From Scardovia inopinata JCM 12537 (lineage in GTDB: Bacteria; Actinomycetota; Actinomycetes; Actinomycetales; Bifidobacteriaceae), in the NCBI RefSeq assembly GCF_001042695.1, contig NZ_AP012334.1:992001-1056000 (forward strand): a stretch of DNA of 64,000 bases, written 5' to 3'. The position numbers were made by a program, and so were the translations under genes. The notes under the pieces are model-generated. The model saw only the letters and a list, made by a program, of their open reading frames with translations. It made no database searches and was not told the DNA's origin. How positions within the stretch are numbered: position 1 is the stretch's first letter; every line of letters begins with the position of its first letter. Of the stretch, positions 51,401-62,890 are shown in pieces.

Positions 51401-52201
51401 TTAATGCACCAAAATCTTGGAAAGGAAGTCTTTGGCCCGTTCAGTCTGAGGATGATCGAAGAATTCATCCGGGGTGCCGGATTCCAAAATCTTTCCGTCA
51501 GCCATAAAGATAATGCGGTCTGCTGCCTTGCGGGCAAAACCCATCTCATGAGTTACACAAATCATGGTCATGCCTTCCTTAGCCAGGCTGACCATAACAT
51601 CCAGTACCTCGTTGACCATTTCCGGATCCAGGGCAGATGTCGGCTCATCAAAAAGCATGACCTTAGGATGCATAGCAAGAGCCCGGGCAATGGCAACACG
51701 CTGTTGCTGGCCGCCCGACAGCTGGGAAGGCATTTTGGAGGCCTGGGAATCGACTCCAACCCGGGCAAGGAGTTCCATAGCCTCATCCTGAGCGTCCGTT
51801 TTCTTCATATGTCTGACCTTGATAGGAGCCAGAGTCACGTTATCCAGAATTGTCTTATTGGCAAAAAGGTTGAACTGCTGAAAGACCATACCCACTTCGG
51901 CCCTGAGATTGGCCAGTGCCTTGCCTTCTGCCGGAAGTGGTTGGCCATCAATCAAGATTTGACCGGAGTCAATGGTTTCCAGGCGGTTGATAGTTCGGCA
52001 CATGGTAGATTTTCCAGATCCTGAAGGACCCAGCACCACCAATACCTCCCCTTTCGATACCTCCAGGTTGATGTCCTTCAATACATGCAGGGATCCATAG
52101 TGCTTTTCTACATGTTTTAGTTCCACCAGAGTCGGAGTTTTTCTCTCTTCTGTCTGCTCATCCGGCACTGTGGTCTGCTCTGTCTCTGTCATAGTAATCA
52201 T
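51401..52201 (-). CDS. glutamate-type ABC transporter ATPase (GluA-like)
   Basis: This 266-residue ATPase reads [20 protein letters not shown], Walker [20 protein letters not shown], signature [20 protein letters not shown] and Walker [21 protein letters not shown]. This is the polar amino-acid uptake subfamily. GGAGG lies only 3 bp from the first ATG and 12 bp from the next one (52192), so the exact start is open. It heads the operon. Confidence 0.93.
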
Positions 52202-52370: not shown

Positions 52371-53564
52371 TCAGACAGGCTGATTAACAAACTGCTCTAT
52401 CCGTTCTGCCGCCTGAGAAAGCTGTTCCATCCCGGCTGCATAGGAAAAGCGCACATACCCCCTGCCATCAGAGCCAAAACAAGAACCCGGGACAGAGCCG
52501 ACCAGGCCTTTCCGGGCCAAATCCAGAGCAAAAGTCTGATCATCAGTCCCGTAAGAAAGAGGAATCCGGGCAAAAAGATAGAAAGCACCAGAAGGGTTAA
52601 CTACCTGAAAACCGCAGGATTCCAGACTTTTACGGAAGTAGTCCCTCCGCTCTCGAAAACGGGAACAGAAGGCTGGAGGATCCTCCCTTCCCTGGTTTAA
52701 GGCTTCCACTGCTGCTGCTTGAGCTACATTGCTAGCAGAGGTCACCAGTAAACTGTGAATTTTTCCAATCCTTTCCATAACCTTGCCAGGACCGGCAACA
52801 AAACCAATCCTCCAACCGGTCATGGCATAAGACTTAGACAGACTAGTGACCACAATGGTAGCGCTGGGGGCACAGGATGCAAGAGAGCAGTATTCCTGAT
52901 TATAGGTAAGATCTGAATATACCTCATCGCTGATAACCAGAAGACCATAATGGGTCACGACCCGTGCCAGATCCTCCACCTCCTGTTTGCTGTAAGCAAC
53001 TCCTGTGGGATTGGTGGGATTATTGAAGAAGACAGCCCGAAGAGGTTTCCCCTGGCGGTGACAGGCAAGAACCTCTGCTTCCAGGGCCTGGGCAGTAAGT
53101 TTGAAATCGTGCGGTCTGGTAGAAACTTCACGAACGTCTGCACCAGCCAGATGAGCAATAGATCCATACAAGGGATAAGCCGGAGTGGGAATAAGCACCC
53201 TGACCCCCGGCCCCAGGAGGGCTAAAGCTGCGGCAGTCAGAGCCTCGGTGGCTCCTGTTGTGGCAATAATTTCCTGGTTAGGATTATAGACTAATCCTCT
53301 TGTTCTCTCCAGGTAACCGGCTACTGCCTGTCTGAAGGTAAGAGTGCCAAAGGCAGGTGAATAGTGACTCTCATTCTGTGAGATCGACTGGATTCCTGCC
53401 TCTTTTACATGCTGGGGAGTGTTAAAATCAGGCTCCCCCAAAGTCAGCAAAATAATCCCGGGAATGTCTTTAATTTTGTTGGTAAAAGAACGAATCAGAG
53501 CGGGTGCTGCACCGGATAGGGCAGGATTATACAAATCTTCCAGACGAGGATCCAGGCTAGTCAT
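52371..53564 (-). CDS. class I/II aminotransferase, probable N-acetyl-LL-DAP aminotransferase
   Basis: This 397-residue PLP enzyme has ILLTLGEPDFNTPQHVKEAG, the PLP-phosphate segment ATTGATEALTAAALAL, AVFFNNPTNPTGVAYSKQEV, and the PLP lysine in VVTSLSKSYAMTGWRIGFVA. It is in the PatA/AspC-like I-gamma group. It is the last gene of the lysine operon, 14 bp after dapB. The acetyl pathway needs exactly one aminotransferase between DapH and DapL, so this assignment rests on context. AraT/AspC activity is an alternative. Confidence 0.87.
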   Translation of the reverse strand: MTSLDPRLEDLYNPALSGAAPALIRSFTNKIKDIPGIILLTLGEPDFNTPQHVKEAGIQSISQNESHYSPAFGTLTFRQAVAGYLERTRGLVYNPNQEIIATTGATEALTAAALALLGPGVRVLIPTPAYPLYGSIAHLAGADVREVSTRPHDFKLTAQALEAEVLACHRQGKPLRAVFFNNPTNPTGVAYSKQEVEDLARVVTHYGLLVISDEVYSDLTYNQEYCSLASCAPSATIVVTSLSKSYAMTGWRIGFVAGPGKVMERIGKIHSLLVTSASNVAQAAAVEALNQGREDPPAFCSRFRERRDYFRKSLESCGFQVVNPSGAFYLFARIPLSYGTDDQTFALDLARKGLVGSVPGSCFGSDGRGYVRFSYAAGMEQLSQAAERIEQFVNQPV

Positions 53565-53578
53565 TCATTTCCTCCAGA

Positions 53579-54385
53579 TCAGAGAACATTTTCCAGACCG
53601 ATTACCAGTTGATTCAGATCCATGACTGCATTCAAAGCAACCTTGACTCCTCCCATGAAGGATGACCTGTCGAAAGAATCCTGCCTGATAGTCAAAGCCT
53701 CCCCCGGGCCACCAAATAAGACCTCTTCATGGGCCAGATAGCCAGGCAAACGAATAGAATGCACGTGAATCCCTTCAAAGTTGCCTCCCCGGGCCCCAGG
53801 CAAGGTCTCAGTCTGACCGCTGTACAGGCTGCGCTTCTCAGGATCAGAAGCCTGAGCTAAGAGACCTGCTGTTGCCAAAGCTGTCCCTGAAGGGGCATCC
53901 TTTTTGTCTCCATGATGCATCTCAATTACTTCTGCATCAGGAAAATAGGCGGCTGCTTGTCTGGCAAACTTCATAAGAAGAACGGCTGATAAACCAAAAT
54001 TAGGAGCGATAATACCTCCCAAGCCTGCGGCAGCAGCCTGCTGGGCCAGAATTCTCTCCTGCTGATCTGTCAGACCGCTTGTTCCTACCAGGGGCCTCAT
54101 TCCATGGTCAAGAGCATAGGAGACATTGGAATATACAGCCGAAGGGGTAGTAAAATCCAGCCAAATATCAGCAGCATGATCAGGGATTTCAGACAGGTCA
54201 TGGTAAACCCGGAACCCATCCGGGAGCACATCGGAAGAAAAACCGGGATCAGTCTCATCCCGGTCCGATTCGCGGGGGGTGAGGCCTACATCAAGTGTAA
54301 AACCAGGTAAAGAATCAATCAATTTTGTGCAGGATTGACCCATTTTTCCTTTATACCCGGCAAGCAATATGGAATATGTCATCAT
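53579..54385 (-). CDS. dapB: 4-hydroxy-tetrahydrodipicolinate reductase
   Basis: This 268-residue protein has the dinucleotide-binding LLAGYKGKMGQSCTKLI at its N-terminus, WLDFTTPSAVYSNVSYALDH, the catalytic motif EMHHGDKKDAPSGTALATA, and the RLPGYLAHEEVLFGGPGEAL C-terminal element. It reduces HTPA to tetrahydrodipicolinate with NAD(P)H. The gene is 84 bp downstream of dapA in the lysine operon. Confidence 0.96.
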   Translation of the reverse strand: MMTYSILLAGYKGKMGQSCTKLIDSLPGFTLDVGLTPRESDRDETDPGFSSDVLPDGFRVYHDLSEIPDHAADIWLDFTTPSAVYSNVSYALDHGMRPLVGTSGLTDQQERILAQQAAAAGLGGIIAPNFGLSAVLLMKFARQAAAYFPDAEVIEMHHGDKKDAPSGTALATAGLLAQASDPEKRSLYSGQTETLPGARGGNFEGIHVHSIRLPGYLAHEEVLFGGPGEALTIRQDSFDRSSFMGGVKVALNAVMDLNQLVIGLENVL

Positions 54386-54469: not shown

Positions 54470-55390
54470 TTATTGCGGCCAATCAGAGCCTGCCAGGCTC
54501 AGCTGGGAACGTCCTGCAAGGCCCAAAGCATGAGCCAGATTGTCTTCTTCCTGATCGGTTAAGGACAGAATAGGCAAACGGCAGCCGCCCGCCTGGTAGC
54601 CCTGAGCATTGAGCACGGCCTTAACCGGAGACGGCGAAGGGTACCTGAACAGGGCAGCCATTCTGGGGATTAGCCAGCGCTGAAGTTTTCCTGCCGCCTG
54701 CCAGTCGCCCCGGTATAAATTATCATACATATCTCGCATCTGAGAAGCATAAATATGTGAAGCAACAGATACAACTCCTGCTGCCCCCAGGAGTCTGGCG
54801 GTCAGAGCCTGAGAATCTTCACCGGTAAAAACGGCAAAGTCCGGATCGGTTCCTTCAATAATTGTTTGAAGGTCTTCTAGACTTGAGCACTGCTTAATAC
54901 CCACAATTCCCGGGTGATGGGACAGACTTATCACCGTCTGTGGCTCCATCAGAACCCCGGTCCTGCCGGGAATATTGTATATGAGCAAAGGCAGATGGCA
55001 ATGGTCGGCCAGGTAAGTGAAATGGGCAATCATTCCTCTTTGATTAGGCTTATTGTAGGGAGGAACAACAACCAGGGCAGCATCAATCCCGGGGATTTCA
55101 GCGACTTCATTAGTCAGCCTCACTGTTTCTTCCGGATTGTTGCTGCCTGTTCCTGCAATAAGGGGAACCCGGCCGCCAATAATCGAACTGAAATTCCGGT
55201 ATAATTCCACTGTTTCATCATGAGTCAGTTCAGGATTTTCTCCTGTTGTCCCCCCTATAACAAAACCGTTCGATCCCTGCTCTATCACATGATTGCTTAA
55301 TTTTTCCAGGGCAGAATAATTAATCTTCTGGTCCTGACCAAAAGGAGTTATTAGGGCCGTATATAGATCTGCTTGCTTAATACGCATCAT
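54470..55390 (-). CDS. dapA: 4-hydroxy-tetrahydrodipicolinate synthase
   Basis: This 306-residue TIM-barrel aldolase reads [40 protein letters not shown], the catalytic Tyr in [12 protein letters not shown] and the Schiff-base Lys in [14 protein letters not shown]. It condenses pyruvate with aspartate semialdehyde, the first committed step. Its ATG overlaps the dapL stop (ATGA), giving coupled translation. Confidence 0.96.
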
Positions 55391-56556
55391 ACCTCATGCA
55401 TCCTCTCAGAAATAAAAGAACAGACGGCTTCGACTCCCTTCCCTATGGCACTCTCTTTAGGATTGAAAGTTGCCGTATGCAGACATGACTCATCATCAAC
55501 CCCCAGCCAGAACATTGTCCCAGGGAAACGGGCAAGAAGGTAACCAAAATCTTCTCCTGTCATGGCTGGTTCCACCGTGGAGTAATCCACACCAGGCAAG
55601 GCTTTCATAATATGGATCAGATTTTTGGTCAGGTGGGGATCGTTGACAACCGGCAGGTAGCCACCTTGATGAAGCCGGCAGGAAACAGTTACTGAATAAG
55701 CTTCTTCCAGCCCCCGGCACAGGGCCAGGAGCTGATCATCGATCCTCTGAATGGTGTTTTGGCTCAGCCCTCGTATGGTCCCCTCAATGTGGGCATGGCC
55801 GGCAATAATATTTCTTGCCCTGCCTGCCTGAATCTTCCCCAAAGTAAGAACCCCACCCTGAACTGGGTCAATTCCACGAGAAATTATGGTCTGAGCCTGC
55901 ATAATAAGGGCTGCTGCGGCCATAAGAGCGTCTTTAGAATCCTGGGGGAAGGCAGCATGCCCACCCACACCCTCTATGTCTATGGTTACTTCGGTAGTTC
56001 CTGCAAAGAGGGTTCCCATCCTGCAACCGATCTGTCCAGCTGGCAGATCGGGAGTGTCATGGAGGGCATAAAACTCATCTGGCTTCCACTCTCCGGTAAA
56101 AATTCCTGATTCATACGCTCTTTTAGCTCCGCTCTCAGCCTCTTCCGCGGGCTGAAAAAAGAAAATGAGATTATCCTCGGGCTGGTGCACAGAAAAATAG
56201 CTGAGCACCCCCAAAGCCACAGCCATGTGTATGTCATGCCCGCAGGCGTGCATATACCCAGGATTTGTCGAGCTAAAAGGCAGATCTGTTTTTTCCTCAA
56301 TCGGCAAAGCATCCATATCAGCTCGGTAAGCGATCGTTCTGCGAGGCCGAAATCCTGACACCAAAACGAGAACAGCTGTGGACAAATTTTCAGGAACTCG
56401 TACCTGCAAAAATTCCTGATTCATACCAGAAATAACTTTCAGCACGTACGCCTGGGTCTTCACTTCTTTCAAGGCTGGTTCCGGAATCTGATGAAGATTC
56501 CGGCGAATAGAAATGAGGTTTGCCTCGGTTAAAACGGGTGACATCTTTTCCATCAT
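55387..56556 (-). CDS. dapL: N-acetyldiaminopimelate deacetylase (M20D family)
   Basis: This 389-residue M20D metallohydrolase has the metal-site segments [17 protein letters not shown] and [20 protein letters not shown], and the C-terminal [29 protein letters not shown] at the start is characteristic of the YkuR/DapL and aminoacylase group. Its position directly after dapH (3-bp gap) and before dapA supports the N-acetyl-LL-DAP deacetylase role. Here dapL means the deacetylase, not the plant-type aminotransferase of the same name. Confidence 0.9.
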
Positions 56557-56559
56557 TTC

Positions 56560-57315
56560 TCAGATCCTTCGCAAATCTTCTTCAATAGCCGTTTTGGATT
56601 CAGTGTGAGCATCAACTGATTTGATAACCCTGGCCGGAACTCCTGCAACCACGGTATAGGGCTCCACATCCTGGGTAACCACCGCTCCTGCTGCCACCAC
56701 AGCATGATCCCCCACCTGAACACCTTCCAAAACAACGGCATTGGCCCCAATAAGCACCTGGTCCCCAATTCTTACCGGTTGAGCTGAGGCTGGCTCGATA
56801 ACCCCGGCCAGAACCGCCCCAGCCCCAATGTGACAATTCTTGCCTACAGCTGCCCTGCCACCCAGAACAGCCCCCATATCAATCAGGGATCCTTCCCCCA
56901 CATAAGCCCCAATATTGAGGATGGCACCCATCATGATGACAGCTCCGTCTTTTATGGTTACCCGATCTCTGATAAGGGCTCCCGGCTCTATTCGGGCATG
57001 TACCCTGGTCAGATCCAGGAGAGGGAGGGCAGAATTTCTCGCACCAGCCTCTACCCTCACCTGCTCAAATCTGCCTTCATACTTTTGGATGAAAGGCTGC
57101 AGAAGAGCCCAGTCGCCAAAAACAATAGCCAGCCTACCTTCTGCAAAAACCTGGGTCTGATCGGGATAAACCAGGCCAGCCATTTCTTCCGAACTGACTC
57201 CCCTTATGTAGACGGTAACCGGGGTTTTCTTATCGGACTGAGCTATATAAGAGATAATCTCCCTGGCAGAAAGACTGTTTTCCTGCCCTCCTGTTCCTGC
57301 TTCACCTGTGGTCAT
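56560..57315 (-). CDS. dapH: tetrahydrodipicolinate N-acetyltransferase
   Basis: This 251-residue protein has the DapH-specific N-terminal domain ([40 protein letters not shown]) followed by left-handed beta-helix hexapeptide repeats from about 105 to 225 ([20 protein letters not shown]). The [18 protein letters not shown] junction matches Bacillus-type DapH rather than the succinyltransferase DapD. It uses acetyl-CoA. The ribosome-binding site AAGGAGG is 6 bp from the ATG. Confidence 0.94.
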
Positions 57316-57357: not shown

Positions 57358-57453
57358 TTATGCTGTATACTGTCGTTTCTTGCTCTTGTGGCTGTGCTTG
57401 TCGTTGAGCTTGTCACTGTGCTTGTCGCTTTTCCTGTCCTTATGCCCGCTCAT
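57358..57453 (-). CDS. possible 31-residue Lys/His/Asp-rich small protein between lysA and dapH
   Basis: The ATG overlaps the lysA TGA (ATGA) and the frame runs MSGHKDRKSDKHSDKLNDKH and on to a TAA at 57358. It is built from 12-bp repeats that encode (D/S)K(H/L)(S/N) units. A charged His-rich peptide could bind metal, or the ORF could only keep ribosomes moving to dapH. It has no homologue that I can recall. Confidence 0.35.
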   Translation of the reverse strand: MSGHKDRKSDKHSDKLNDKHSHKSKKRQYTA

Positions 57454-58793
57454 CGGTGTGGACCAGAATCATAGGCCATATCCAGACGGATTAAATCTTC
57501 ATAGCTTTCCCGACGAATGACTAGCTGGGGGTGGCCATCTTCAACAAATACAACTGCTGGACGGGGATTGCGGTTATAATTTGATGCCATAGAATATCCA
57601 TATGCCCCTGTAGCCGGAATGGCCAAAATGTCTCCTGGTTGAGTTTGGGGCAGAGCCTGATCCCAGCAGAGTACATCTCCGGACTCACAGTATTTTCCAG
57701 CAATTCGCACAGTCTCAGCTGGCCGGCCTACGGGGTTTTTGGCAAGAAAAGCCTGGTAGCGGGCCCTGTACAAGGCAGGGCGGATGTTGTCCCCCATTCC
57801 TCCATCCACAAAAATATATGAATTATAACCAGGAATATCTTTTCTGGATCCCACCGTATACAAGGTACAGGCGGCTGACCCTACCAGCGACCTGCCGGGC
57901 TCAATCCACACTGTTGGCAAGGGGAAGGATAAGTCAGCTGCAGCCTGACGGATACTGCTGGACAAAGACTGAACAAAATCTTCCACATCATCCGGATCAT
58001 CTTCCTGATTATAGGCAATGCCAAAGCCTCCCCCCAGATTCACAGACTGTGCGCAGTAACCAAAATCCCTTCTCCACCGGGCAGCAAGATTGATCATAAT
58101 TCGAGCCAGGGCCTGAAAGGCATAAGGATCAAAAATTTGTGAACCAATATGGGCATGAATTCCTTCCATACAAAAACGAGAATCAGCAAGAACCTTCTGA
58201 AGAGCCCGGTCTGCCTGGCCGGAAGCCAAATCGAAGCCGAATTTGCTGTCAGTCTGACCGGTGCTGATGTAGTCATGGGTGTGGGCACTGACACCAGGAG
58301 TTATACGGAGCATAATATGAGCCGGCTCAACCTGATCACGATGAGCAGACCGAGGAGAAGGAAGCATATTTTGTAAAAGTTCTATCTCATGGAAATTATC
58401 AATAATGATAAGTCCCACTTTGCTCTTTAGGGCAAAAGTAAGCTCTTCCTGAGATTTATTGTTCCCATGAAAGCTGATCCTTTCAGGGGGAAAACCAGCA
58501 GCCAAGGCGGTTGCCAGTTCGCCTCCAGAAACCACATCAACATGCCCCCCCTCCTGGTCGATGAGATTATAAACAGCCTTGCAGGAAAAAGCCTTTGACG
58601 CATACGAGATGACAGATCTGATCTTGGCTTTCTCAAATGCCTGCCTGAAAGCCCGGTAATTACGACGGATTCGGCTGACATCATAAGCAATAACCGGGGT
58701 ACCATAAGTGGCAGCCAGGTCAAGACAGTCGCACCCGCCTACCATAAAATGACCGGATGCGCTGATCTGATCTCTCTGTATCATCTCTGTCAC
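57450..58793 (-). CDS. lysA: diaminopimelate decarboxylase
   Basis: This 447-residue fold-III PLP enzyme has the PLP lysine in VISYASKAFSCKAV, GGELATALAAGFPPERISFH, the Gly-rich VNLGGGFGIAY, WIEPGRSLVGSAAC, and the CESGDVL motif in AGKYCESGDVLCWDQ. It converts meso-DAP to lysine, the last step. It is the first gene after the lysine riboswitch and terminator. Confidence 0.96.
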   Translation of the reverse strand: MTEMIQRDQISASGHFMVGGCDCLDLAATYGTPVIAYDVSRIRRNYRAFRQAFEKAKIRSVISYASKAFSCKAVYNLIDQEGGHVDVVSGGELATALAAGFPPERISFHGNNKSQEELTFALKSKVGLIIIDNFHEIELLQNMLPSPRSAHRDQVEPAHIMLRITPGVSAHTHDYISTGQTDSKFGFDLASGQADRALQKVLADSRFCMEGIHAHIGSQIFDPYAFQALARIMINLAARWRRDFGYCAQSVNLGGGFGIAYNQEDDPDDVEDFVQSLSSSIRQAAADLSFPLPTVWIEPGRSLVGSAACTLYTVGSRKDIPGYNSYIFVDGGMGDNIRPALYRARYQAFLAKNPVGRPAETVRIAGKYCESGDVLCWDQALPQTQPGDILAIPATGAYGYSMASNYNRNPRPAVVFVEDGHPQLVIRRESYEDLIRLDMAYDSGPHR

Positions 58794-58909
58794 TGTTGCC
58801 TCCCCTATCTAATGTTTCTACTTATGTTTCGCTTATATATAGCGCTTATGTTTTTTTATATGTCGGTATGTCGTTTATATTTATATTTTTCTGTATTGTG
58901 ACAAGAGAA

Positions 58910-58938
58910 CAAAAAACGGACTGCGTCTGCGCAGTCCG
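58910..58938 (-). terminator. riboswitch-controlled intrinsic terminator before lysA
   Basis: On the minus strand cggactgcg-cagA-type loop-cgcagtccg (58938 to 58917) forms a perfect 9-bp stem with a 4-nt loop, followed by six T and GTT. It lies between the lysine aptamer and the lysA start, the position of the expression platform. Confidence 0.93.
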
Positions 58939-58977
58939 GAACTTACACAACGTGCACGAAGCAACGTTTTGAATTAT

Positions 58978-59156
58978 GGAGTTTCGACAGCGCTCCGCGA
59001 ATCTGATTTCGCGACAGTCTGAAACTTATTCAGCAGCAGACCAGCTCCCGGGCTTGTACCTGCCCGGGGCTTCGGCGGCTTCCCCTTTTACCATCAGTCA
59101 TAGCCTGGCCGGCTCATGATGGCTACTGATGTCAGTCGCACCTCTTCGATTACTAA
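58978..59156 (-). promoter_or_regulatory. lysine riboswitch (L-box) aptamer
   Basis: Reading the minus strand, the aptamer has the L-box hallmarks in order: TCGAAGAGGTGCGACT with an AGTAGCC after it, AAGGGGAAGCCGCCGAAG (59070-59087), a hairpin of cccgggc type, then GCTGGTCTGCTGCTGAATAA and CAGACTGTC near the 3' side, with a UCGA/UCGA closing P1. These match the conserved core of the Bacillus lysC leader. With the terminator at 58910 this predicts transcription termination when lysine binds. It controls lysA-dapH-dapL-dapA-dapB-aminotransferase, not the divergent dapF. Confidence 0.94.
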
Positions 59157-59158
59157 GT

Positions 59159-59187
59159 ACTATACACATTACCGTATACTTTGTCAA
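59159..59187 (-). promoter_or_regulatory. promoter of the lysine operon
   Basis: On the minus strand TTGACA (59187-59182) and TATAGT (59164-59159) are separated by exactly 17 bp, so transcription would start at or just before the riboswitch aptamer. Confidence 0.85.
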
Positions 59188-59261
59188 AGGGTGCATGTTA
59201 TTTTTTAGTGATTATTGCATACTTAACAGGCAGCGCAGAGATTTTTGGGAGGCAGAATTAC

Positions 59262-60290
59262 ATGATTACCTTAGAGAAAGTTCAAGGCAGTGGCAACAGT
59301 TTTTTTCTTCTGGACCAAGATCTGCTGCCTTCTGCCTTAAATGAGAATGAGTTGAGCAGACTCGCCCTTGCCCTCTGCCCCAGGAAGACCGGACTTACAG
59401 GGGGAGCCGATGGAATTTTAGCGGTGACCGCCAGTCCCACTCCTTCCATACACGTCATTAATGCTGATGGAAGTCAGGCATCCATGTGTGGGAATGGTCT
59501 GCGTACTGTAGCACGCTATTTACATGATCATTATGGATTTGGGCAAGAAGGTAAAAGAGATACGATAGATGGCTCTTTCCATGTATCTACTCTCAACGCT
59601 AACCTGCAGGTACGATCAGTAGGAAATTTTGCTCCTGGCCTGCCAGCCTATTCCGTGGAAATCTCACCCGTATCCTTTGACAGCCGCAGCCTCCCCTTCA
59701 CTAATTTGGGTCGAAATCGCCTGATTAATTGCAGCGTCCCTGAGCTTTTACCAGACCTGCGTTTTACTGCCCTGTCTGTTCCTAACCCTCATGTGGTTTC
59801 TTTTATGACTCAAGATCAGGTCCAGTCTGATCTTCTTTCATCTCTGGGGAACCGGCTCAATTCTCCCAACCCGTATTTCCCCAATGGTGTGAACGTTAAT
59901 TTTGCCCACATACTTGGCCGCAATACCCTCTATGTCCGTACTTTCGAGCGGGGAGTCGGACTGACGAACGCCTGCGGAACCGGGATGTCTGCAGCTAGTC
60001 TTTGTCTGGTCCTTACCCACCCTCAGATGGGAGAGGCGAACCAGGAAATCACTGTATACAATCCGGGAGGTATGGTAAAAACTCGTGTTCATTACCAGGA
60101 GGAGGAAGGAACCTATACGATTAACCTCATTGGCAATGCCACAGTGACCCATCTGATTGAACTCGACGAATCCTGCCTCTACCATCCTCCAGCCCAGGGG
60201 TCTGACCTCGAAAAAAAGAAAGCAAAAATCAAAGAAACCGCAGAGAATACAGCGTACCAAGATTTTGTGGCAAAACTCCCCTACCACTGA
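59262..60290 (+). CDS. dapF: diaminopimelate epimerase
   Basis: The ATG at 59262 (MITLEKVQGSGNSFFLLDQ) has GGGAGG 8 bp upstream; the 27 codons before it in frame have no family similarity. The 342-residue protein has both catalytic cysteines: Cys76 in NADGSQASMCGNGLRTVARY and Cys238 in RGVGLTNACGTGMSAAS. It interconverts LL- and meso-DAP. It is divergent from the lysine operon and so outside riboswitch control, which would keep meso-DAP conversion independent of lysine. A charged C-terminal tail of about 30 residues (EKKKAKIKETAENTA) is longer than usual. Confidence 0.95.
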   Translation: MITLEKVQGSGNSFFLLDQDLLPSALNENELSRLALALCPRKTGLTGGADGILAVTASPTPSIHVINADGSQASMCGNGLRTVARYLHDHYGFGQEGKRDTIDGSFHVSTLNANLQVRSVGNFAPGLPAYSVEISPVSFDSRSLPFTNLGRNRLINCSVPELLPDLRFTALSVPNPHVVSFMTQDQVQSDLLSSLGNRLNSPNPYFPNGVNVNFAHILGRNTLYVRTFERGVGLTNACGTGMSAASLCLVLTHPQMGEANQEITVYNPGGMVKTRVHYQEEEGTYTINLIGNATVTHLIELDESCLYHPPAQGSDLEKKKAKIKETAENTAYQDFVAKLPYH

Positions 60291-60331: not shown

Positions 60332-62890
60332 TCAGTCTTGGTTCTCAGCCCCTGTCAATTCCAGGATCATAGCCAAAACCCTCCTGGCAGACTGCTGCAA
60401 CGTTGCCCTGGTCAGACTGTACTGATGCTCAGGATTGCTCAGAGCATCCATGATATCTTTCTTATCTGAAGGAATACCAGGCATTGTCAGATCATTACCA
60501 GCCTTCACACACCCAGCAGCAGAAGCCGCCGGCCATTGGTCACCCGAGGGTCCCATTCCTCCAGTTACCAGCCAATCAGTCATTACAAGACCATCAAAAC
60601 CCCACTCATCACGCAGAATTTCGGTCACCAAGTCATACCTGTTGCAGGCGTGTTCACCGTTAATGAGATTGTAGGAGGTCATCACTGTTCGGGGATGTGA
60701 CGTCTTCACGCAAATCTCGAATCCCTTCAGATAGATTTCCCGCAAAGCTCTCTCAGAAATGTTGTTATTCTGGAAGTAGCGGTTTGTCTCCTGATTATTG
60801 GCGGCAAAATGCTTGATCGTGGTGGCACATCCCTGATGCCGGCTAACACCCCGGGTGATGGCTGCTGCGATCCTACCGGCGAGGAGCGGATCTTCGGAAT
60901 AATATTCAAAATCTCTGCCACACAGGGGAGATCGCTGAATATTCATAGCCGGAGCAAGCCAGAGATTCGCCCCGAAGAGCTCCATCTCATCACCAACCAG
61001 ATCGCCGCACTGCTGAACCAGATCATCATCCCATGACTGGGCTAACTCAGTACCAATCGGGATAGCAGTGCAATACTGATAGTAAACCGTCCGAGCTCGG
61101 GCCGAATCAGTGGCTCGAGACTTCATAGCAGCCAGCTCCTCATCCGAATACATGGAGAGCATGTCTGCACCCATAGAAGTCTCCAAAGGCTGAGGTTTAC
61201 CACCATCTAGGGTATACCTTTGAGAAAGACGCAGGCCGGCAGGACCATCAGCCATGGTCAAAACAGGAAGATCCTGACCTTCAATTTGATGAGTGGTCTC
61301 ACCAGCAGCACCGGCCAGAGTGGTGGACGCGTCGCCTATGACCTCCATCAAATCATCAGAATCCTTGTATGCTCCCACACACAGGTAGGTCAGATCTTCA
61401 TCAGACAAAGTCCCTACAAACTCATCCAGACTTCGCTGACCGGAAGCAACGTCCTTCCAGGAGAAAGGCTCTGTTCTGGTGATTTCTGCGGGTTGATCAG
61501 AATAAGAAACTGCGGTCGTAGGAATACTGCCAGCATCAATTTCCACTACGGTGGCTGTCGCAATTTCATGTGCTTCCTCCGGGTAGCTATAGGCCGGGCC
61601 AGAGGGAACAAAATCCGTAAATCCACTCTCTCCACCGACCGCATGAAGTTGCTGAGTAACGACATCGTCACTCAAGCGAACAATTCCAGCAATATGCGTG
61701 GATCGGGAGCTGTCTCCTACCCGTAGGGCATAGTCTCCAGCTTCCAACAGATAGGCACTAGACTTCTGGTCATAAGAGGCAAGAGAAGACAAATTAAAGG
61801 TAAGGCTGACTACCTGAGATTGGCCTCCCTGCAATTCCTGAGTCTTGACAAAGCCAGCCAAAGCCTGGTAAGGCTTCGGTAAAGAACGGTCTGGCTGCGG
61901 GGCAGAATAGTAGACTTCGACTACATCCTTGCCGGCGGCAGAACCCGTATTGGTAACGGTAGCATTAACAGTTATCGTTTCCCCATCGACTTCTACAGTT
62001 CCGGGGCTGACCTTGAAAGTAGTGTATCCTAAACCAAATCCGAAAGGATAAATAGGAGTGGTATTGGTACTGTCAAAATACCGGTAACCGACGAAAATGC
62101 CTTCCCGATAATTAGTGTTATTGGGGTCGCCAAAACCTTCTGTTGAAGGATAGTCTTCAATCGGAGCCCAGGTCATAGTCAGTTTTCCTGAAGGATAGGC
62201 CTTTCCAGTCAAGACATCGGCGCAGGCATCTCCGGTAGCTGATCCCAGCTGGCCGAGGAGGAGAACGGTTTTGATCTCTTCCAAACCTGTTAAATCAATC
62301 AATCCGCCCACATTGAGAACCAAAGCAAAATGCTGATAAGTCTTATTCAGTTCGACAATATCCCTCAGTTCTGTTTCGGTCAGTTTAATGTCTCCCGGGA
62401 CTGGACGACGGTCCGACCCTTCCCCGGAGTTGCGGGCCAGAACGTACACAGCTGTGTCTGCATCGGTTCCCTTGTGGAGAGGAATTTGATAGTTGGGCTC
62501 CACCACCATCTTGCCCATTGTCGCCAGAATCGGATTTTGACCAGCTGCTTTAGCCTCTTGGCGCAGCTTTTGATAAAAGTCCTTTTTTGCAGCACTAATG
62601 ACCTGATCGTAGGCATCGAGCCAATCTTTAGTGGTGACAGTAACCCCGGCTTTCTCCAAGCCCTCTTCTACGGTTACAAAATGTCGAACATTAACATCAC
62701 CAGAACCAGTGCCACCCTTAATCGTCTGTCGGGCACCATTGCCGTAGAGGGCTACTGACTGCAGGTTTGTTAAGGGAAGTGTACCATCATTTCTCAGAAG
62801 AACCATGCATTCTGGTGCCAGACGGCGGACCAGATCTTCATGCTCCTGTTCGAAAGCTTGTTTATCCGGATCGTTGATACGAATAGTCAT
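60332..62890 (-). CDS. GH3 beta-glycosidase with permuted domain order
   Basis: This 852-residue protein has the GH3 parts in rearranged order. The alpha/beta-sandwich domain comes first (CMVLLRNDGTLPL at 28-40; SGEGSD 155-160, likely acid/base Glu157), then a fibronectin III-like domain (EVYYSAPQPDRSLPKPYQAL), then the TIM-barrel (MADGPAGLRLS; TIKHFAANNQETNRYF; nucleophile Asp772 in GLVMTDW). In the standard order the barrel is first. This order is known from some Butyrivibrio and Ruminococcus beta-glucosidases. No signal peptide is seen, so it acts on imported oligosaccharides. AAGGAG precedes the ATG. Confidence 0.92.
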   Translation of the reverse strand: MTIRINDPDKQAFEQEHEDLVRRLAPECMVLLRNDGTLPLTNLQSVALYGNGARQTIKGGTGSGDVNVRHFVTVEEGLEKAGVTVTTKDWLDAYDQVISAAKKDFYQKLRQEAKAAGQNPILATMGKMVVEPNYQIPLHKGTDADTAVYVLARNSGEGSDRRPVPGDIKLTETELRDIVELNKTYQHFALVLNVGGLIDLTGLEEIKTVLLLGQLGSATGDACADVLTGKAYPSGKLTMTWAPIEDYPSTEGFGDPNNTNYREGIFVGYRYFDSTNTTPIYPFGFGLGYTTFKVSPGTVEVDGETITVNATVTNTGSAAGKDVVEVYYSAPQPDRSLPKPYQALAGFVKTQELQGGQSQVVSLTFNLSSLASYDQKSSAYLLEAGDYALRVGDSSRSTHIAGIVRLSDDVVTQQLHAVGGESGFTDFVPSGPAYSYPEEAHEIATATVVEIDAGSIPTTAVSYSDQPAEITRTEPFSWKDVASGQRSLDEFVGTLSDEDLTYLCVGAYKDSDDLMEVIGDASTTLAGAAGETTHQIEGQDLPVLTMADGPAGLRLSQRYTLDGGKPQPLETSMGADMLSMYSDEELAAMKSRATDSARARTVYYQYCTAIPIGTELAQSWDDDLVQQCGDLVGDEMELFGANLWLAPAMNIQRSPLCGRDFEYYSEDPLLAGRIAAAITRGVSRHQGCATTIKHFAANNQETNRYFQNNNISERALREIYLKGFEICVKTSHPRTVMTSYNLINGEHACNRYDLVTEILRDEWGFDGLVMTDWLVTGGMGPSGDQWPAASAAGCVKAGNDLTMPGIPSDKKDIMDALSNPEHQYSLTRATLQQSARRVLAMILELTGAENQD

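Follow-up and report, generated by a model that had tools for sequence, protein, structure and literature searches.

The window studied here is a stretch of 64 kb from the genome of Scardovia inopinata JCM 12537, a tooth-decay bacterium, and it contains a block of lysine genes headed by a riboswitch. On the minus strand the block starts with lysA, encoding diaminopimelate decarboxylase from a GTG start (57450-58793; TIGR01048, 457.6 bits). It is followed by dapD of the acetylase type, a tetrahydrodipicolinate N-acetyltransferase (56560-57315; TIGR03532), and by dapL in the Bacillus subtilis sense, that is an M20 amidohydrolase acting as N-acetyldiaminopimelate deacetylase (55387-56556). For dapL the family model, TIGR01891, assigns the protein at the subfamily level only, and the best matches, at 63% identity, are annotated as N-acetyldiaminopimelate deacetylase. 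Further downstream are dapA (54470-55390; TIGR00674), dapB (53579-54385; TIGR00036), which is the only dapB found in the genome, and patA, a PLP-dependent aminotransferase (52371-53564) that is named from the gene order and from a match to NF005588 of 433.6 bits, under the cut-off of 576.

The remaining gene of the block, dapF (59262-60290; TIGR00652), is on the plus strand. It diverges from the lysA operon, so it is outside the control of the riboswitch although it belongs to the same pathway. The region shared by the two transcription units is short (59160-59262). The block is flanked by two resident genes, both on the minus strand: to the left the ATPase of an amino-acid ABC transporter, glnQ-like (51401-52201), with 90-91% identity to the genes of both relatives studied below, and to the right a GH3 glycosidase (60332-62890), 69% identical to the gene that adjoins glnQ in one of them (G186, locus L198).

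A lysine riboswitch leader upstream of lysA

An initial annotation, made by reading the DNA alone, had described a promoter, a near-full set of L-box elements and a terminator in this order ahead of lysA. A scan of the whole window with Rfam returned a single match above any gathering score: RF00168, the lysine riboswitch, at 59154-58980 on the minus strand, with 99.4 bits and an E-value of 3.3e-25 (the gathering score is 30). The model is covered end to end, positions 1-182 of 182, so the aptamer is complete, and 45 of the 49 upper-case consensus positions are matched. The covariance-model search that the annotation had suggested thus gave a significant hit, and its set of elements and their order ahead of lysA were borne out. 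No other L-box was found when the genome was searched with RF00168.

The promoter that had been pointed out, TTGACA-17-TATAGT of sigma-70 type, is present at 59187-59159 on the minus strand: the -35 element is at 59187-59182, the spacer has 17 nucleotides and the -10 element is at 59164-59159. It matches the consensus at 11 of 12 positions. Taken alone it is not above chance, since the region 58780-59300 contains one promoter-like site and shuffles of the same region yield 1.0 on average. The perfect 9-bp terminator with its T-run is likewise there, at 58938-58911 on the minus strand. It reads CGGACTGCG-CAGA-CGCAGTCCG (58938-58917) followed by six T (58916-58911), has 9 pairs of which 7 are G-C, and the hairpin alone has a predicted energy of -15.8 kcal/mol. 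Shuffles of the region produce 0.5 terminators on average. As shuffles also make such sites, the weight of promoter and terminator comes from their position and from the homologues: in all seven Lactobacillaceae homologues examined a TTGAC-type promoter is found at an equal distance from the aptamer, and the order promoter, aptamer, terminator is kept.

Between the terminator and lysA lie about 117 AT-rich bases (58794-58910). In the seven homologues this gap looks shorter, roughly 30-60 bases when judged by eye.

The sequence between aptamer and terminator suggests how the switch might work. The 3' strand of P1 together with the next bases (58993-58980) forms the 5' half of a predicted antiterminator, whose 3' half is at 58943-58929, all on the minus strand. 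The 3' half overlaps the 5' arm of the terminator, so the two structures are predicted to be mutually exclusive. Folded by itself, the segment spanning 58995-58926, P1 3' strand through terminator loop, has the antiterminator as its best fold, with 12 of 12 pairs and -18.7 kcal/mol; GCGC, GUCG and AACU pair with AGUU, C, GAC and GCGC, leaving small inner hairpins. In the context of the full leader it does less well: with the RNA cut at the terminator loop, the most stable structure is 2.6 kcal/mol lower in energy than the antiterminator, and the difference rises to 6.4 kcal/mol once the terminator has been completed. If the 5' portion of the leader is omitted, the completed terminator still beats the antiterminator by 4.0 kcal/mol, and none of the seven leader prefixes that were folded has the antiterminator as its best fold. 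Antitermination would therefore need to be kinetic. We would expect the choice to be made while the RNA grows, and the modest difference in energy at the moment of decision fits a kinetic switch whose default is off.

The pairing of the P1 3' strand with the arm of the terminator was also compared with that of shuffled arms. These equal the pairing in 5% of cases for the window, in 9% for a homologous leader from a Lactobacillus amylolyticus plasmid and in 0.5% for one from a Limosilactobacillus fermentum plasmid. In the latter the terminator sequence is quite different, yet the same kind of pairing between its arm and the P1 3' strand recurs. In six other leaders (L032, L034, L036, L037, L040 and L048) the pairing is no better than in shuffles, by a measure that cut the loop short.

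In the mechanism that we propose, the aptamer would bind lysine when it is plentiful and P1 would hold, which would let the terminator at 58938-58911 form and halt transcription ahead of lysA. With lysine in short supply, the P1 3' strand (58993-58980) would instead pair with the terminator 5' arm (58943-58929) during RNA synthesis; the terminator would then be too late to form, and lysA-dapD-dapL-dapA-dapB-patA would be transcribed, presumably as one unit.

Origin of the operon and of its RNA

Among GTDB genome contigs, the nearest relatives of the lysA gene are from Limosilactobacillus, with at most 59% identity, in a scan that requires exact short query peptides and may therefore miss relatives; no close donor is seen. 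Judged by record titles, Bacillota account for 72 of the 80 lysA loci that were retained, and one locus is from an Actinomycetota metagenome bin (L107), at 40% identity. When 20 of the Bacillota loci were tested for gene order, ten had lysA-dapD-dapL-dapA-dapB-patA with dapF upstream on the opposite strand, at 45-68% identity, and all ten are from Limosilactobacillus or Lactobacillus. An L-box precedes lysA in 11 of 12 such lactobacilli loci, two of which are plasmid-borne; the exception is L038.

In the lysA trees, the gene of the window joins the Lactobacillaceae group of L-box operons, with a support of 97/97 in the careful tree. The quick tree has 64 rows (42 of the 80 retained loci, 15 of the 29 native Bifidobacteriaceae genes, four members of the phylum, two plasmid loci and the window), and the careful tree has 42, after removal of 22 of these. 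The AU tests are mixed: forcing the window gene outside the Lactobacillaceae gave p-values of 0.020, 0.153 and 0.094 under three definitions of the constraint.

The aptamer was studied in a set of 95 rows, the window included, from which one locus that is cut off (L203) and eight loci repeating lysA-operon L-boxes already present had been left out. After 27 rows more than 93% alike were dropped, a tree of 68 was built. The window aptamer clusters with the lysA-leader group of lactobacilli (support 100/95) and is nested within it (100/89); a position as its sister is not rejected (AU p 0.378). Identity is at most 64%, with a median of 60%, to 12 Bacillota lysA leaders, eleven from lactobacilli and one from Pisciglobus. 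It is at most 55% (median 50%) to the leaders of 48 Bifidobacteriaceae lysP genes, at most 55% to six Limosilactobacillus lysP leaders and at most 56% to 19 L-boxes from other members of the phylum. RNA and genes appear to agree on the origin, and the evidence from the RNA is strong, short of formally rejecting a local source.

Two other genomes of the genus, G186 and G187, were used to study the site. In G186 glnQ comes immediately after the GH3 gene, and in the window the same two are separated by 8.1 kb that include the lysine genes. In G187 other genes are found upstream of glnQ, so the empty site is seen in one of the two relatives. When both junctions were compared with the relatives by blastn, only the flanking genes matched. 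From this arrangement the lysine block looks like an insert. Its GC is 0.492, equal to that of the surroundings, and gives no sign of a foreign origin.

Searches found lysA, dapB and dapF in neither relative, leaving S. inopinata as the only one of the three genus genomes with them, and the absences suggest that G186 and G187 are lysine auxotrophs. The acetylase-type DapD (TIGR03532) is above the cut-off in one of 189 Bifidobacteriaceae genomes, which is S. inopinata; the weaker matches in 176 others we read as other hexapeptide transferases. The S. inopinata lysC and asd genes look resident: they are 71% (over 189 aligned residues) and 75% identical to their counterparts in G187, where they occur in the same order, and asd is only 37% identical to that of Limosilactobacillus mucosae. 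Neither gene was found in G186. As lysA, dapB and dapF were found only in S. inopinata while lysC and asd appear to be resident, the imported set corresponds to the part that was missing. Further, both relatives carry an L-box before lysP, and S. inopinata has no close copy of their lysP (40% identity at best).

The lysine cluster with its L-box is also found on large plasmids of lactobacilli, which were detected by a search with the deacetylase protein. One is a 200-kb plasmid of Lactobacillus amylolyticus that is typed as non-mobilizable (L199, 1480-11439), the other a 252-kb plasmid of Limosilactobacillus fermentum that is typed as mobilizable (L200, 4094-11864); in the latter the cluster is only partly annotated and lysA was recovered as a piece of 347 residues. 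Such plasmids are a possible vehicle, with no evidence for a transfer into S. inopinata itself, and a plasmid search that used the leader DNA as query gave no match.

Taken together, we consider it very probable that this is a lysine riboswitch that shuts off the operon by termination, and that operon, dapF and riboswitch came jointly from the Lactobacillaceae and restored the lysine pathway. The operon, the divergent dapF and the riboswitch would have arrived together from a lineage of that family and been placed between GH3 and glnQ, where the imported genes, with the resident lysC and asd, would make up a pathway not seen in the two relatives. The direct basis consists of the aptamer match, the anatomy of the leader, the common gene order, the empty site in one relative and the gene absences found by search; the direction, from Lactobacillaceae to S. 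inopinata, we infer.

Part of this history could be different if only the genes were foreign and the L-box of the genus, recruited from lysP, had been placed before the imported lysA. The lysP L-boxes of both relatives, together with the single L-box and the lack of a close copy of that lysP in S. inopinata, would fit such a recruitment, and forcing the aptamer to group with the Bifidobacteriaceae lysP L-boxes is a borderline case in the AU test (p 0.063), not formally rejected. However, that constraint costs 26 log-likelihood units, the aptamer is closer to the L-boxes of the lactobacilli lysA operons than to those of Bifidobacteriaceae lysP genes and groups with the former in the tree, and operons of the donor type have an L-box at the same place. 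We regard a local riboswitch as very unlikely. Still less credible, and disfavoured by us, is vertical inheritance of the operon within the Bifidobacteriaceae followed by loss everywhere else. The unremarkable GC agrees with it, and an AU test in which lysA is forced to group with the native genes of the Bifidobacteriaceae does not reject that grouping (p 0.369), under a constraint that allows the long branch of the native genes to shift next to the gene of the window. The native lysA is, however, of another type, about 40% identical to that of the window, the acetylase-type DapD is above its cut-off in one genome of the family and the neighbouring genes stand side by side in G186 without the block.

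It could also be that the riboswitch has become a passenger, decayed or weak in its response, and that lysine regulation is gone, which we find unlikely. The L2-L3 loop contact is important for lysine riboswitches. Here L2 (59106-59110) and L3 (59054-59061) are predicted to form three pairs, GCC with GGU, which is at chance level, as about 47% of mismatched loop pairs also reach at least three by the same crude measure; at least four are found by it in 8 of 11 aptamers of the lactobacilli lysA type. The short contact could mean a weaker switch or reflect the limit of the measure. Four of the 49 conserved positions differ, the full leader has a better fold than the antiterminator, and the long spacer before lysA points the same way. 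On the other side, 17 of the 48 Bifidobacteriaceae lysP L-boxes likewise have at most three loop pairs, the aptamer scores higher than 9 of 11 matched aptamers from lactobacilli lysA operons (which range from 85.8 to 109.4 bits) and the terminator is intact.

Lysine riboswitches in the family and the phylum

RF00168 is present in 49 of 189 Bifidobacteriaceae genomes, from 3 of 16 genera. In all 48 other cases a lysP-like sequence is found within 1.5 to 1.8 kb downstream, and lysA in none, so the L-box of S. inopinata is the only one of the 49 that precedes lysA. At one Bifidobacteriaceae locus (L174, 1501-1678) only the C-terminal part of lysP is found behind the L-box, from either a truncated gene or an assembly fault. 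Lysine riboswitches before lysP have been reported as horizontal transfers in Bifidobacterium asteroides and Gardnerella vaginalis (PMC5584792). The initial annotation had called L-box control unexpected in this family. With 49 genomes and the published lysP cases, that does not apply to the L-box itself; what is unusual is the gene that it controls, lysA as against a lysP-like gene in the other 48. The foreign look of the gene cluster had escaped that annotation.

In a sample taken evenly over the phylum, 19 of 396 genomes have RF00168 matches, S. inopinata included. Among the L-boxes from other families, 15 of 19 precede a lysA of another type; the families concerned are f20, f27 and f41, which we take to be Coriobacteriia. 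A published table lists an L-box before lysA in Atopobium parvulum (lysA-dapA-dapB) and in Slackia (PMC5584792). These cases resemble ours in phylum and in the L-box before lysA, but their lysA type is far off in the tree (four examples) and their aptamers belong to other branches. The lysP L-boxes of B. asteroides and Gardnerella are from the same family as S. inopinata and of the same aptamer class, and they too have been explained by transfer from Lactobacillales (PMC5584792). In contrast to the S. inopinata L-box, they control uptake and not synthesis, and their RNA groups apart from it.

The closest known system is the lysA operon of Limosilactobacillus and Lactobacillus, for instance in L. 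mucosae DSM 13345 (L034); L-box control of lysA-dapD-dapA-dapB-asd has been tabulated for Lactobacillus (PMC5584792). The layout of aptamer, promoter and terminator is alike, as are the order lysA-dapD-dapL-dapA-dapB-patA and the divergent dapF. In L. mucosae, however, lysC is located between dapF and the riboswitch and the operon closes with asd, and both genes are absent from the S. inopinata block. The two systems also differ in the spacer between terminator and lysA, which is longer in S. inopinata, and in the host, which here is an actinobacterium.

Among the titles and opening lines of abstracts in the Scardovia literature we found no account of this operon. Passages of PMC6052428 contain nothing bearing on it, and the main text of PMC5584792 does not name Scardovia. 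That paper is, judged by title, the only relevant one that we found on lysine riboswitches in Bifidobacteriaceae or Actinobacteria. The riboswitch class is known, and the L-box before lysA is, as far as we have searched, new for the Bifidobacteriaceae. The probable joint transfer of a riboswitch and its biosynthetic operon would be a new case, with Lactobacillaceae as the most likely source.

As a riboswitch the S. inopinata L-box is otherwise ordinary. We lean towards a picture in which an acetylase-type DAP pathway, reduced to those steps that were missing in the recipient, passed from Firmicutes into an actinobacterium along with its riboswitch, and in which the imported RNA works as an off-switch. 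The other species of the genus would use a separately acquired L-box for lysine uptake, so that two imported modules would occur in one genus. Because the site is empty in a relative, the genes present are those that were not found in the relatives, and the RNA can be traced on its own tree, the joint movement of regulator and pathway between phyla is fairly clean in this case. It offers a way to test whether a riboswitch shaped alongside one RNA polymerase still functions in a distant host.
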